Shown here: positions 4,589 to 8,036 of the stretch, one piece after another
How the letters are laid out: each line of letters starts with the position of its first letter
How positions within the stretch are numbered: position 1 is the first letter of the stretch
Origin: Cupriavidus malaysiensis
GTDB taxonomy: Bacteria; Pseudomonadota; Gammaproteobacteria; Burkholderiales; Burkholderiaceae
Assembly (NCBI RefSeq): GCF_001854325.1
Contig: NZ_CP017754.1
Location: forward strand, 558,001 to 622,000
Direction of reading: 5' to 3'
DNA length: 64,000 bases
Position numbers and translations under genes: made by a program
The notes under the pieces: generated by a model
Told to the model about the DNA's origin: nothing
What the model saw: only the letters and a program-made list of their open reading frames with translations
Databases searched by the model: none

Positions 4589-5644
4589 ATGGCCACCCGC
4601 AAGCCCACCACCCGCGCCAAGGTCCAGGCAGCACCCGAGACCGCGGCGCCCCCCGCCTCCCCTCCCGCCCCGCTGGTCCTCGCCTACCTCGACTGGCTGG
4701 CCACCGGCCGCAAGCTGGCGGCCCACACCCTGTCCAACTACGCGCGCGACCTCTCCGTGCTGCAGGCCCAGGCGGCCCGCCACGCGCCGGGGGTGGCGCT
4801 GACGGCCCTGCAGACCCGCCACATCCGCGCCATGGCCGCGCGCCTGCACGGCCGCGGCCTGGCCGGCAGCAGCATTGCGCGCACGCTGTCGGCCTGGCGC
4901 GGCTTCTTCCATTGGGCGGCGCTGCATGGCCACGGCGTCGAGGCCAATCCGGTCGACGGCGTGCGCGCGCCCAAGATGGGCAAGCCGCTGCCCAAGGCGC
5001 TGGCGGTGGACCAGGTGGTGGCCCTGGTCGAGCACCCGGCCGGCGACGGCGCCGAAGGCCGGCGCGACCAGGCGGTGTTCGAGCTGTTCTATTCGAGCGG
5101 GCTGCGGCTGTCCGAACTGGTCCAGCTCGACCTGCGCTATACGGAAGACGGCGACTACCGCTCGGCCGGCTGGCTGGACCTGGCCGGCGCCGAGGTCACC
5201 GTGATCGGCAAGGGCTCGCGCCGGCGCACTGTGCCGGTCGGCAGCAAGGCGATGGCAGCCCTGCGCGCCTGGCTGGCCGTGCGCGACACGCTGCTGTCAC
5301 CCGCCGCATCGCCAGCCGACGCCGCCGCCCTGTTCCTCAGCGCGCGCGGCCGGCGCCTGCCGGCGCGCACCGTGCAACTGCGTCTCAAGCAGCATGCCCT
5401 GCGGGCCGGGGTGCCGGCCGATGTGCATCCGCACATGCTGCGGCACTCCTTCGCTACCCATGTGCTGCAATCCTCCGGCGACCTGCGCGCGGTGCAGGAG
5501 ATGCTGGGGCACGCCAGCGTGGCGACCACGCAGATCTATACGGCGTTGGATTTCCAGCATCTGGCCAAGGTCTATGACCGAGCGCATCCGCGGGCGAAGA
5601 GGGAGGGGCCGGCTGCGGCGGTGGGGCAGGAGGATGAGGATTGA
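4589..5644 (+). CDS. xerC: Tyrosine recombinase XerC
   Basis: A 351-residue site-specific recombinase that, with XerD, resolves chromosome dimers at dif. An N-terminal SAM-like core-binding domain covers about residues 25-125, and the catalytic domain about 135-330. All active-site residues are visible: Arg173 (SSGLRLSEL), Lys208 (VIGKGSRRR), His282 and Arg285 (HMLRHSFATH), His308 (LGHASVATTQ) and the nucleophile Tyr317 (QIYT). The first 25 residues are a Pro/Ala-rich extension. It is slightly longer than the usual 300 residues because of this tail and an insertion near 190-200. It follows the DUF484 gene, the common arrangement. The repeat block begins directly after its stop codon. Confidence 0.96.
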   Translation: MATRKPTTRAKVQAAPETAAPPASPPAPLVLAYLDWLATGRKLAAHTLSNYARDLSVLQAQAARHAPGVALTALQTRHIRAMAARLHGRGLAGSSIARTLSAWRGFFHWAALHGHGVEANPVDGVRAPKMGKPLPKALAVDQVVALVEHPAGDGAEGRRDQAVFELFYSSGLRLSELVQLDLRYTEDGDYRSAGWLDLAGAEVTVIGKGSRRRTVPVGSKAMAALRAWLAVRDTLLSPAASPADAAALFLSARGRRLPARTVQLRLKQHALRAGVPADVHPHMLRHSFATHVLQSSGDLRAVQEMLGHASVATTQIYTALDFQHLAKVYDRAHPRAKREGPAAAVGQEDED

Positions 5645-5657
5645 GTGGGTTGGAGGG

Positions 5658-6004
5658 CTTGTTTCGGCTCTCGTAACTTGACGCTTGTCGTGTGGGTTCT
5701 GGCGTTGTCGGTTTGCGAGGCAAAAGCCTGTTTCGACTCCCCTGCGGGGAGCCGACCTACTTTCTTGTCTTGCCAAGAAAGTAGGCAAAGAAGGCGCGCC
5801 GGGTGCGGCTCAAAGACTCCTCGCGTGCTGAGGCAAAGAGCGGCCGGGCCCCAACTCGGATCGCCTTAAGGCGATCCTCAGACAGGGGGCCCTCTAATCC
5901 GCTCTTTGCCCCAGCACGCGAGGCGCCGCACACGGCAGGGAACAGACGCCACGCCTCGCTTCGCTTCGGGTGGGGAGTGTGCGGCCAGCTTGCTGGCCGC
6001 ACAC
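5658..6004 (+). repeat. Structured repeat, copy A1
   Basis: First direct copy. Visible stems in order: 5737-5742 with 5746-5751 (CTCCCC/GGGGAG); 5757-5767 with 5774-5784 (CTACTTTCTTG/CAAGAAAGTAG); a 25-nt arm pair 5819-5843 with 5899-5923 with one A-C mismatch; inside it a perfect 20-bp palindrome at 5858-5877; and a terminal hairpin 5977-6004 (13-bp stem, TT loop). The left boundary is approximate. The leading part resembles the 62-bp unit seen at 6617 onward in reverse complement. Confidence 0.85.
5683..5699 (+). repeat. Left 17-bp inverted repeat of the repeat locus
   Basis: GCTTGTCGTGTGGGTTC at this position is repeated exactly in reverse complement at 7027-7043. The pair encloses the whole set of elements. 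No target-site duplication is evident outside the pair. Confidence 0.8.
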
Positions 6005-6351
6005 CAATGCACTCGTGACTTGATGCCTTGTCGCTTGTCTTCGGGCGGTGTTGGTTTGCGAGGCAACGACCTGTTTCGACTCCCCCTGCGGGGGAGCCGA
6101 CCTACTTTCTTGGTCTTGCCCAAGAAAGTAGGCAAAGAAGGCGCGCCGGGTGCGGCTCAACCCCCCCTCGCGTGCTGAGGCAAAGAGCGGCCGGGCCCCA
6201 ACTCGGATCGCCTTAAGGCGATCCTCAGACAGGGGGCCCTCTTTTCCGCTCTTTGCCCCAGCCCGCGAGGCGCCGCACACGGCAGGGAACAGATGCCACG
6301 CCTCGCTTCGCTTCGGGTGGGGGGTGTTCGGCCAGCTCGCTGGCCGAACAC
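6005..6351 (+). repeat. Structured repeat, copy A2
   Basis: Second direct copy, 347 bp after A1. Stems: 6102-6113 with 6120-6131 (12 bp, one pair longer than in A1), the 25-nt arms 6166-6190 with 6246-6270, and the terminal hairpin 6324-6351. In the terminal hairpin, one base on each arm differs from A1 in a compensating way (GTGTG/CACAC becomes GTGTT/AACAC). That hairpin also forms the junction with the inverted copy A3. Confidence 0.85.
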
Positions 6352-6617
6352 AAAGGCTCAGCCAACCAGGCCGTCACGCAAAAGCGAGCCCGCTCGTAGA
6401 CCAACGGTTGGCCTTTCCCTCCCGTGTGCGGCGCCTCGCGAATTGGCCCCGGCCGCCGATGAAGCCCGTCCGCTGTCTGAGCGGCCGCAGGCCGCGAGTT
6501 CGGACGGGCGCGGCGGCCGGGGCCAATTCGCGAGGGGGTTTCGCCGCACCCGGGTCGCCTTCTTTGCTTACTTTCTTGGGCGAGACCAAGAAAGTAAGTC
6601 GGCTCCCCGCAGGGGAG
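6324..6617 (-). repeat. Structured repeat, inverted copy A3 with swapped stems
   Basis: Inverted copy sharing the terminal hairpin at 6324-6351 with A2. Its long arms are a perfect 25-bp pair (6434-6458 with 6511-6535), the same length as in A1, but all except the outermost bases have a different sequence. Within the loop the A1 palindrome is replaced by another self-complementary stretch (GCGGCC/GGCCGC), while the joining segments AACTC and TCAGACAG, read on the minus strand, are kept. The stem 6567-6579 with 6586-6598 (13 bp) matches the A1/A2 TTTCTTG hairpin but extends it with a compensated C-to-T change. Confidence 0.8.
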
Positions 6618-7026
6618 TCGAAACAGGCTGTTGCCACGCATACCAACACCGCCCGAAGACAAGCACAGAGTCACGAGAGCCGAAACAGGCTGTTGCCACG
6701 CATACCAACACCACCCGAAGACAAGCACAGAGTCACGAGAGCCGAAACAGGCTGTTGCCACGCATACCAACACCGCCCGAAGACAAGCACAGAGTCACGA
6801 GAGCCGAAACAGGCTGTTGCCACGCATACCAACACCACCCGAAGACAAGCACAGAGTCACGAGAGCCGAAACAGGCTGTTGCCTCGCAAACCAACACCGC
6901 CCGAAGACAAGCACAGAGTCACGAGAGCCGAAACAGGCTGTTGCCACGCATACCAACACCACCCGAAGACAAGCACAGAGTCACGAGAGCCGAAACAGGC
7001 CGTTGCCTCGCAAACCGACACCGCTC
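6617..7026. repeat. 62-bp tandem array, six full units plus a diverged seventh
   Basis: Units start at 6617, 6679, 6741, 6803, 6865, 6927 and 6989, spaced exactly 62 bp. The seventh diverges after about 40 bp. Each unit starts G(C/T)CGAAACAGGC. Units alternate between CACCGCCCG and CACCACCCG near position 35 of the unit, which suggests growth by duplication of a 124-bp pair. In reverse complement the unit matches the leading part of copies A1 and A2, so the array is an expansion of the element's own leader. There are no spacers of unrelated sequence. Confidence 0.9.
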
Positions 7027-7043
7027 GAACCCACACGACAAGC
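7027..7043 (-). repeat. Right 17-bp inverted repeat of the repeat locus
   Basis: GAACCCACACGACAAGC is the exact reverse complement of 5683-5699. It lies 33 bp before the stop codon of the converging LysR gene. Confidence 0.8.
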
Positions 7044-7076
7044 CCTAAATCACCGGCGCCCAAACACCCCCGAAAC

Positions 7077-8036
7077 TCACCCCTCCCACCGCTTCAACAC
7101 CTCCCGAAACGCCGCCATCTCCGGCAACAGCCACTCCCGGAACGCCTTCACCTTAGGCAGTTCCAGCGTGCCCGGCGCACAGACGAAATACAGCAGCCAA
7201 GGGCAGGGAATGCTGACGTCGAACAGCCGTACCACCCGCCCGGACAGCAGGTCGTTATAGGCCAGCGAGGAGCGGATCAGGGCGATGCCCTGGCCTTCGG
7301 CGGCGGCCTGCAGCAGCAGCGAGGAGTCTTCCAGCAGCAGGCCCTTGCGCGGTTCGGGCAGGTCCAGGCCGGCGGCCTCGAACCAGGGCCGCCATGGATC
7401 GCCTTCGCCGCGCAGCAGGGGCATCCCGGCCATCTCGCGCGGCGTCCGCGGCAGCTTGCCGCTGTTGAATTGCGGGCTGCATACCGGGAAGAACACGTCG
7501 TCCAGCAGCTTTTCCACATAGAGGCCCGGATAGTCGCCGCTGCCCATGCGCAGCGCCAGGTCGACCTCTTCGCGTGCGAAGTCGACCAGACTGTTGGAGG
7601 ACAGCAATTCGACGTCGAGTTCGGGATGGCGCTCGATGAAGCTGCCGATGCGCGGCGTCAGCCAGCGCGCGGCGAAGGAGGGCATGGTGCTGATGGTCAG
7701 GCGCTTGTCGCGCTTGCCGGCCTGCAGCACGCGGGTGGCGTCGGCGATCTGCAGCAGGGCGTCGCGCACGCGCTCGGCGTAGACGCGCCCGCCGGGCGTC
7801 AGGCTGACGCGCTTGCCGTGGCGTTCGAACAGGGGCTGGCCCAGTTCGGCTTCGAGCGCGCGGATCTGGTGGCTGATGGCGCCATGGGTGACGAACAGCT
7901 CGGTGGCGGCCCGCGAGAAGCTCTCATGGCGGGCGGCCGCCTCGAAGGCGCGCAGCGCGCCCAGCGCCGGCAGGCGGGGCAGTTCACGATGCCAGCCGCG
8001 CGGCAGGTCCTTTTCCGAAGCGCTCTTCCAGGCCAT
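7077..8036 (-). CDS. LysR-family transcriptional regulator, GcvA-like
   Basis: A 319-residue regulator. The winged helix-turn-helix is at about residues 22-80 (LGALRAFEAAARHESFSRAATELFVTHGAISHQIRALE) and the effector-binding domain at about 105-305. The HGAISHQI recognition helix is typical of the GcvA/AmpR subgroup. ATG 8036 is chosen because a purine-rich AGAGGG lies just upstream; the frame stays open to 8165 without conserved sequence. It is divergent from the DUF2917 gene at 8221, the usual layout of a LysR regulator and its target, so it may control that gene and itself. The ligand cannot be predicted. Confidence 0.9.
   Translation of the reverse strand: MAWKSASEKDLPRGWHRELPRLPALGALRAFEAAARHESFSRAATELFVTHGAISHQIRALEAELGQPLFERHGKRVSLTPGGRVYAERVRDALLQIADATRVLQAGKRDKRLTISTMPSFAARWLTPRIGSFIERHPELDVELLSSNSLVDFAREEVDLALRMGSGDYPGLYVEKLLDDVFFPVCSPQFNSGKLPRTPREMAGMPLLRGEGDPWRPWFEAAGLDLPEPRKGLLLEDSSLLLQAAAEGQGIALIRSSLAYNDLLSGRVVRLFDVSIPCPWLLYFVCAPGTLELPKVKAFREWLLPEMAAFREVLKRWEG

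Follow-up and report, generated by a model that had tools for sequence, protein, structure and literature searches.

A broad repeat family of Cupriavidus and related bacteria, in which a variable palindrome is joined to a predicted A/T-rich intrastrand triplex, is most likely a mobile DNA element

Results

The window, a stretch of 64,000 nucleotides from Cupriavidus malaysiensis, carries an xerC gene that ends at 5644 and a convergent LysR-type gene on the minus strand whose stop codon lies at 7077. Between them is a composite insertion of ∼1.4 kb (5655–7071, not assigned to a strand) with 90-nt imperfect inverted repeats at its ends (5655–5744 and 6982–7071) that are 79% complementary. Inspection of its first unit, A1 on the plus strand, reveals a GC-rich hairpin, H1 (5734–5755), followed by the TTTCTTG hairpin, H2 (5756–5785), which is formed by a pyrimidine arm (5761–5766) and a purine arm termed R1 (5775–5780). 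H2 is adjoined by a second purine tract, AAAGAA, termed R2 (5787–5792, plus strand), which mirrors R1 and would be the third strand in a putative intrastrand triplex of the purine motif. The palindromic body of A1 (5799–5935) has an outer stem, P1, that encloses the remaining stems, namely a 25-nt variable stem (5819–5843 with 5899–5923) and an inner stem (5846–5852 with 5886–5892), and contains the segment AACTC (5853–5857), an apical hairpin (5858–5877) and the segment CTCAGACA (5877–5884). A tail hairpin follows at 5977–6004.

The second plus-strand unit, A2, spans 6101–6282 from H2 through the outer stem (R2 at 6134–6139; tail hairpin at 6324–6351) and scored 198.8 bits with the covariance model described below. 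The third, A3, is an inverted unit of a second class, B (6422–6598, minus strand; R2 at 6565–6560 of that strand; 135.6 bits), and lies tail-to-tail with A2. A3 is adjoined by a minus-strand tandem array with 62-bp spacing (6610–7043) that is built from the head-side leader of the unit. Short AAAGTC-type tandems precede H1 in some relatives.

A first-pass annotation had proposed a single plan for A1, A2 and the inverted A3, with stems kept while sequence differs, and this was borne out. The arms of the 25-nt stem pair at 24 of 25 positions in A1 (one A·C mismatch), 23 of 25 in A2 (6166–6190 with 6246–6270) and 25 of 25 in A3 (6434–6458 with 6511–6535). The arms of A1 and A3 do differ, at 12 of 25 left-arm positions, which is about half and not most of them as annotated. 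The replacement of a G-C by a T-A pair between the tail hairpins of A1 and A2, the additional G-C pair in H2 of A2, the C-G to T-A swap in H2 of A3 and the retention of AACTC and CTCAGACA were all correctly described; both R2 and the age of the A3 class had been missed.

In the own genome, 12 loci carry the A unit. Units of the A3 type form class B, the long copies of which are 91–97% alike in this genome, and at 10 of the 12 loci one to four A units are accompanied by one inverted B unit. The exceptions are a locus with two facing A units and a B fragment (L012) and a locus rearranged around an insertion sequence (L019). Judged from sequence, A3 is an old sister class of A1 that arose by an old split and is not a recent mutant at this locus. 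The annotated “covariation inside one locus” is thus right in that compensated change is real and wide, but the contrast between A1 and A3 did not arise at the locus, since A3 belongs to a separate class that is present once per composite at the 10 loci.

Class A core copies were counted with a fixed pattern allowing up to two mismatches. Seven of the 60 genus genomes sampled carry the core, with 23 copies in the own genome, 41 in G007, 37 in G003 and 42 in G058, the other three carriers having 8, 3 and 1, and 53 are without it; chance origin of the pattern was ruled out by a reversed-pattern control, which gave no hit in any of the 60. A sequence search gave some match in 14 of the 60 genomes. 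A covariance model built from 18 diverse class A units detected matches in 26 of 150 genomes (6 of 25 genera) in a family sample, 88 of 300 genomes (51 of 134 genera) in an order sample and 25 of 299 genomes (16 of 153 genera) in a phylum sample. Copy numbers from these searches are lower bounds, given that 18 (family) or 9 (order and phylum) candidates were scored per genome; in a further genus (g24), 15 to 18 of the 18 scored candidates matched in each of 13 genomes. The same element was present in an uncultured Ralstonia record. Such a model search had been suggested in the first-pass annotation, and it found copies beyond the locus; the element is no isolated occurrence, being present at 12 own-genome loci and in many relatives.

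The strict core, AACTC...CTCA(A/G)ACA, was present in 27 of 38 aligned order-level matches and a looser core in 32, with arms that are unrelated to those of Cupriavidus yet complementary. Of the 25 phylum-sample genomes, 15 fall in one family of another class (f76). The AACTC/CTCAGACA core was found at none of 14 loci examined (12 from f76, 2 others), where a hairpin head and a palindromic body are present; the f76 head is a mirror by script at 4 of the 12 loci and visible by eye at others with a spacer disallowed by the script. The f76 matches, lacking the core, were rejected as full family members. The gammaproteobacterial loci examined (Lysobacter, Luteimonas, Xanthomonas, Pseudomonas and others) showed the H2 head only. 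In other Cupriavidus, Burkholderia-like genomes and the family of another class, the H2/R2 head is also found attached to bodies of a quite different kind (loci L032, L082, L108–L117 and L309–L318). H2/R2 is therefore a module, and it may be the shared head of several element families.

Spread by plasmids or phages was rejected, given the few plasmid matches, all partial (two for the window copy, six for a second genus), and the lack of any phage match for either. No description of the family was found in the open literature, so that “undescribed” refers here to open papers only, and the family goes unmentioned in the available parts of PMC2267715 and of the genome papers on C. metallidurans CH34 and on C. 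necator JMP134.

Pairing was assessed in the 18 diverse class A units, which came from the own and related genomes and were aligned by sequence (MAFFT). Paired cells amounted to 98.7%, as compared with 89.1% (S.D. 0.6) in shuffled alignments and 42.5–50.5% in slid controls. Double changes were seen in 17 of 56 pairs (shuffled mean of 11.4; none of 500 shuffles reached 17) and in 90 cells versus 27.3 in shuffles, the covariation score was 0.238 versus 0.065, and one-sided variation was confined to a single pair. The weakest measure was the count of additional pair types (27 versus 23.8), the observed value being reached by 33 of 500 shuffles. The structure tested was the consensus of the same sequences, which favors it, as does their relatedness; model-fitted alignments lean toward the model, and the statistics were drawn from the sequence-based alignment only. 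The stems are kept by compensated change.

Among 138 distinct Cupriavidus units, a 10-bp variable stretch paired perfectly in 69 and with one to three mismatches in the other 69. The perfect units represent 18 arm types, and mismatched units are often hybrids of two types. In addition, the whole arm pair had been exchanged for a type known from other sites at 2 of 11 orthologous sites compared (of 16 pairs between G003 and G007). Arm-pair exchange and hybrid arms indicate that conversion between copies is part of how compensation arises.

The pyrimidine arm, R1 and R2 read TTTCTT/AAGAAA/AAAGAA in the window and TTTTCTT/AAGAAAA/AAAAGAA elsewhere, and further mirror variants are TTTTCTTT/AAAGAAAA/AAAAGAAA, TTTCTTTT/AAAAGAAA/AAAGAAAA, TTTCTCTT/AAGAGAAA/AAAGAGAA and TTTTTCTT/AAGAAAAA/AAAAAGAA. 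After exclusion of loci fetched by a pattern presupposing the motif, 75 of 81 asymmetric hairpins were followed by a mirror tract and 6 by neither arrangement; no direct repeat was found, and this reading of R1 and R2 was rejected. Most of the 75 contexts are Cupriavidus copies, so that 9 distinct mirror variants is the fairer count. Symmetric hairpins matched in 58 cases and did not in 6, and the order- and phylum-level model loci alone gave 16 mirror, 0 direct and 1 neither. In 4 of the 11 orthologous pairs from G003 and G007, the hairpin differs by TTTCTT versus TTTTTT and the two purine tracts have changed to match, one case having an extra base change and two being duplicates of each other.

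A mirror tract cannot pair with the pyrimidine arm in Watson-Crick fashion without mismatches but fits antiparallel on the purine arm, consistent with a class II intrastrand triplex. The sequence pattern of that class was found complete, with a pyrimidine arm, a purine arm and a mirroring purine third strand on one strand and short loops between. R2 placed on the purine arm could form A·A-T and G·G-C triads in the predicted triplex, and the three strands covary in the manner predicted for such a structure. The bottom strand could form a pyrimidine version of the triplex, as DNA or RNA.

These observations bear on an account in which the units are passive repeats, their arms being kept alike by palindrome correction through template switching and by gene conversion, with no structural selection. 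The exchanged arm pairs, and the equal numbers of perfect and mismatched units with their many hybrids, are what it would produce. It leaves unexplained the mirror tract, R2 being the arm of no palindrome, and the retention of AACTC and CTCAGACA across genera with unrelated arms (the strict core in 27 of 38 matches), and we regard it as the least probable of the explanations considered.

At the xerC locus, no H2 motif was present in any of 29 relatives compared, in 28 of which the LysR-type gene was recognized; xerC and LysR are convergent neighbors in relatives, with stop codons that are close and often overlap (13 loci examined). Two further own-genome sites gave the same picture, with both core and H2 lacking in 29 of 29 relatives compared at each and the right-hand gene recognized in 28 and 24, with 4 of these 58 loci ending <620 bases from the left gene. 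Presence is thus lineage-specific at three own-genome sites. At the second of the two further sites, L010, an element follows the same gene in G058, which is outside the 29 relatives; it is apparently independent, because the G003 and G007 loci are without element.

Gene context was scored by an ORF heuristic in 60 stretches from three genomes, mostly chosen around elements and with orthologous sites included. Convergent gene pairs flanked 29 of 58 element sites versus 130 of 782 background sites (p = 2e-8), and divergent pairs flanked 0 of 58 versus 163 of 782 (p = 3e-6). A wider set of 83 loci, restricted to those with a gene called on each flank and close enough to it, comprised 41 convergent, 39 tandem and 3 divergent sites; paired units were tail-to-tail in 24 cases and head-to-head in none. 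At tandem sites of this set, units were antisense by 24 to 7, as compared with 11 to 9 in a systematic set counted by hand in which some sites are shared, and an antisense preference was dropped as not reproduced.

At three loci of the own genome (L014, 2770–4044; L016, 2769–4043; L021, 1323–2603), the TTTCTTG hairpin has an IS481-family insertion sequence with a 381-amino acid transposase in its loop, and a remnant is present in L019. A 6-base flanking repeat, GCGAGA, is present at two of the three loci. This element may target the hairpin or may have spread with the repeat.

The location of units at gene 3′ ends and their scarcity in divergent regions would also suit an RNA element of 3′ untranslated regions, whose long stem would act from the bottom strand as a decay or processing signal (RNase III) or as a terminator; its H2 part would be a U·A-U triple helix in RNA, and the mirror tract does permit a pyrimidine-motif triplex on the bottom strand. 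Stem mismatches were examined in this light, with three antisense or partial matches left out of a first wobble count. Class A stems contain almost no G·U. In Cupriavidus, 25 distinct mismatch contexts are A·C (G·U on the bottom strand) versus 2 G·T, with 54 versus 3 cells in the variable P2 stretch and 13 A·C versus 4 G·U in the first count, and this excess could reflect selected pairing of a bottom-strand RNA. The asymmetry is reversed in the second genus (A·C 6, G·T 12) and slight in 26 diverse units (26 versus 19). Given that the symmetric re-count leans opposite ways in two genera, the first count was dropped as proof of DNA; that no strand is favored throughout by mismatches is itself a weak argument for DNA. 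Tandem units show no stable orientation to genes (24 to 7 versus 11 to 9), and Rfam gave no match at the gathering score, only sub-threshold ones, in the window or in 19 relative loci. The regulatory RNA offered by the first-pass annotation is thus unsupported, there being no wobble excess consistent across taxa; Cupriavidus taken alone departs from this picture in its lean to bottom-strand G·U. Overall, the data weakly favor DNA over RNA while leaving room for an RNA role in Cupriavidus, and the RNA explanation is considered unlikely.

Orientation relative to replication was determined for single units on three chromosomes, with origin and terminus placed by GC skew, a noisy signal in the 20-kb stretches that were sampled. 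Units ran with the fork in 42 of 51 cases (p = 3e-6; 10 of 14 in G003, 9 of 10 in G007 and 23 of 27 in G058), a count of modest statistical weight that includes orthologous sites, omits G058 sites 3600957 and 5306087 (which have a nearby inverted partner) and draws on 37 of the 42 G058 copies. Removal of seven G007 sites taken as shared (six compared with orthologues, three of these by one flank only, and one presumed) left 35 of 44. The non-redundant G003 and G007 sites gave 12 of 17 (p = 0.14), so that most of the bias comes from G058. Gene direction cannot influence the outcome at sites between convergent genes, and there 17 of 20 single units ran with the fork by hand count.

Units running with the fork place the top strand on the lagging-strand template. 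This is expected for single-strand movers such as IS608. The same orientation is also expected from fork stalling by the purine strand, and purine-motif triplexes are reported to arrest polymerases. The 42 of 51 co-orientation would therefore also be accommodated if the unit were a replication pause or chromosome organization element, kept for its place and stance to the fork. Class A core copies are missing from 1.67–3.04 Mb of G003:C1 and 1.69–3.08 Mb of G007:C1, two arcs within which the inferred terminus falls, and in Escherichia coli the BoxC triplex motif, which occurs in inverted pairs, favors the origin half in K-12 but not in other strains according to the available passages of PMC4666352. 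Against such a role, 53 of 60 genus genomes are without the core, so the element is unneeded for chromosome biology; in addition, the orientation data are from chromosomes other than chromosome 2, and the empty arcs may hold fewer conserved genes. We consider a chromosomal site quite improbable.

A mobilizing enzyme was sought in 25 genomes. A Y1-transposase-like gene was found in all 25, in carriers and non-carriers alike; no RAYT flanked by the element was found, and no H2-like motif occurred in any of the 11 Y1-type loci, from 16 retrieved, that were scanned over their whole length. With carriage independent of the element and no such motif at the 11 loci, a RAYT/Y1 transposase was rejected as the mobilizer; the 11 loci include other Y1 genes, and proteins were read at all but L387, L398 and L400. 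The Cupriavidus and Ralstonia-like genomes examined have retained a Y1-transposase-like gene of about 250–310 amino acids (L388, L389, L392–L394 and L397) with ATTTAAATGGGGTCAGA-type repeats after it, the repeats having been inspected in two Y1 loci.

Discussion

The analysis defines a family with a common plan, three-way covariation, enrichment between convergent genes, scarcity between divergent genes and tail-to-tail pairing, with fork co-orientation of single copies as a statistically modest addition. Taken together, the family appears new and broad, joining a predicted A/T-rich intrastrand triplex module to a variable palindrome, and is most likely a mobile DNA element. Among the options named in the first-pass annotation, the mobile hairpin element is the best supported.

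A specific mechanism, to which we give about an even chance, is that of a non-autonomous, dispersed, non-coding DNA element of about 200–350 bp that is captured in trans as a folded single strand and integrates again at single-stranded gaps. Its head, composed of H1 and then H2 with R2, could adopt a class II intrastrand triplex rich in A/T. The body is a long palindrome whose arms vary freely while complementary, arranged around single-stranded AACTC and CTCAGACA, a core seen in Cupriavidus and related genera, with tail hairpins following. An enzyme acting in trans would capture the folded single-stranded DNA, probably from the lagging-strand template, and the element would then be placed in single-stranded gaps. 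Copies that disturb promoters would be lost, leaving those at gene 3′ ends, and unit-to-unit conversion would subsequently swap whole arm pairs. Against a mobile reading, no mobilizing enzyme was found in the 25 genomes searched, and no target-site duplication was established.

More tentatively, and with some doubt, the family may belong to a proteobacterial superfamily of single-strand-mobile elements that share an A/T-rich triplex head, selected as a triplex in living cells, and have exchangeable palindromic bodies. Similarly doubtful is the corresponding view of the bodies, in which those with the AACTC/CTCAGACA core would be found in Cupriavidus, Ralstonia-like genomes and much of the order, and those with other cores in the family of another class.

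The cellular importance of intrastrand DNA triplexes is still unclear, as stated in the available passages of PMC4666352. The family provides a natural experiment in which the hairpin sequence changed in several lineages and the third strand changed along with it, and which is testable on oligonucleotides. If the triplex reading is correct, three-strand covariation would be evolutionary evidence for triplex selection in living cells. With 88 of 300 order genomes matching the model, the element is also frequent enough that genome annotation and RNA-seq in Cupriavidus and relatives will often meet it unnamed.

The proposed mobile element resembles several known systems in part. Elements of the IS200/IS605 kind and their derivatives are expected to show fork orientation if the lagging-strand template is the source of the mobile top strand. 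The present family is like them in orientation to the fork and unlike them in that no transposase-bearing version was found and no short fixed target was shown. REP sequences and REPINs, with their RAYT transposase, are extragenic palindromes that form inverted doublets and for which a single-strand mechanism has been proposed. Inverted doublets of extragenic palindromes are likewise a feature of the present family, which differs from REP in its variable arms and in units of about 180–350 bp, some five to ten times larger than palindromes of 20–40 bp. In size and intergenic position, the units are like the large intergenic repeats R26 and R200 of Pseudomonas fluorescens, as far as the description in the consulted part of PMC2718517 goes. 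A MITE of a DDE transposon would be expected to have terminal inverted repeats, a target-site duplication and an autonomous relative; the ends of the window composite are 90-nt imperfect inverted repeats, and neither a duplication nor an autonomous relative was established there. Integron attC sites, which have R/L boxes beside gene cassettes and an integrase, offer an analogy in the recognition of a folded strand.

The closest structural parallel to the head is a motif reportedly described by Hoyne et al. 2000, known as BoxC, PIT elements or the TM-ECO intrastrand triplex motif. Cupriavidus, Ralstonia and CTTTCTTT are absent from the main text of PMC4666352 (Holder et al. 2015), and the window segment 5735–5940 had no match in 20,395 E. 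coli records. PIT elements showed no effect when tested in vivo, and G/C-rich motifs were argued to be the more meaningful, in the passages of PMC4666352 that deal with these points. The BoxC/PIT/TM-ECO consensus, CCCTCNCCC-N3-6-GGGNGAGGG-N3-GGGNGAGGG, is not that of H2, which reads TTTCTT/AAGAAA/AAAGAA and similar. As described in the available passages of the same paper, BoxC/PIT has the same order of pyrimidine arm, loop, purine arm, short loop and purine third strand on one DNA strand, and is likewise an intergenic repeat of many copies, patchy between close relatives, with inverted pairs of two types. BoxC/PIT is G/C-rich (CCCTCNCCC...) with 9-nt stems, and those passages mention no palindromic body (PMC4666352), whereas the present element is A/T-rich with about 5–8 triads, and its triplex motif is confined to the head of a far larger unit.
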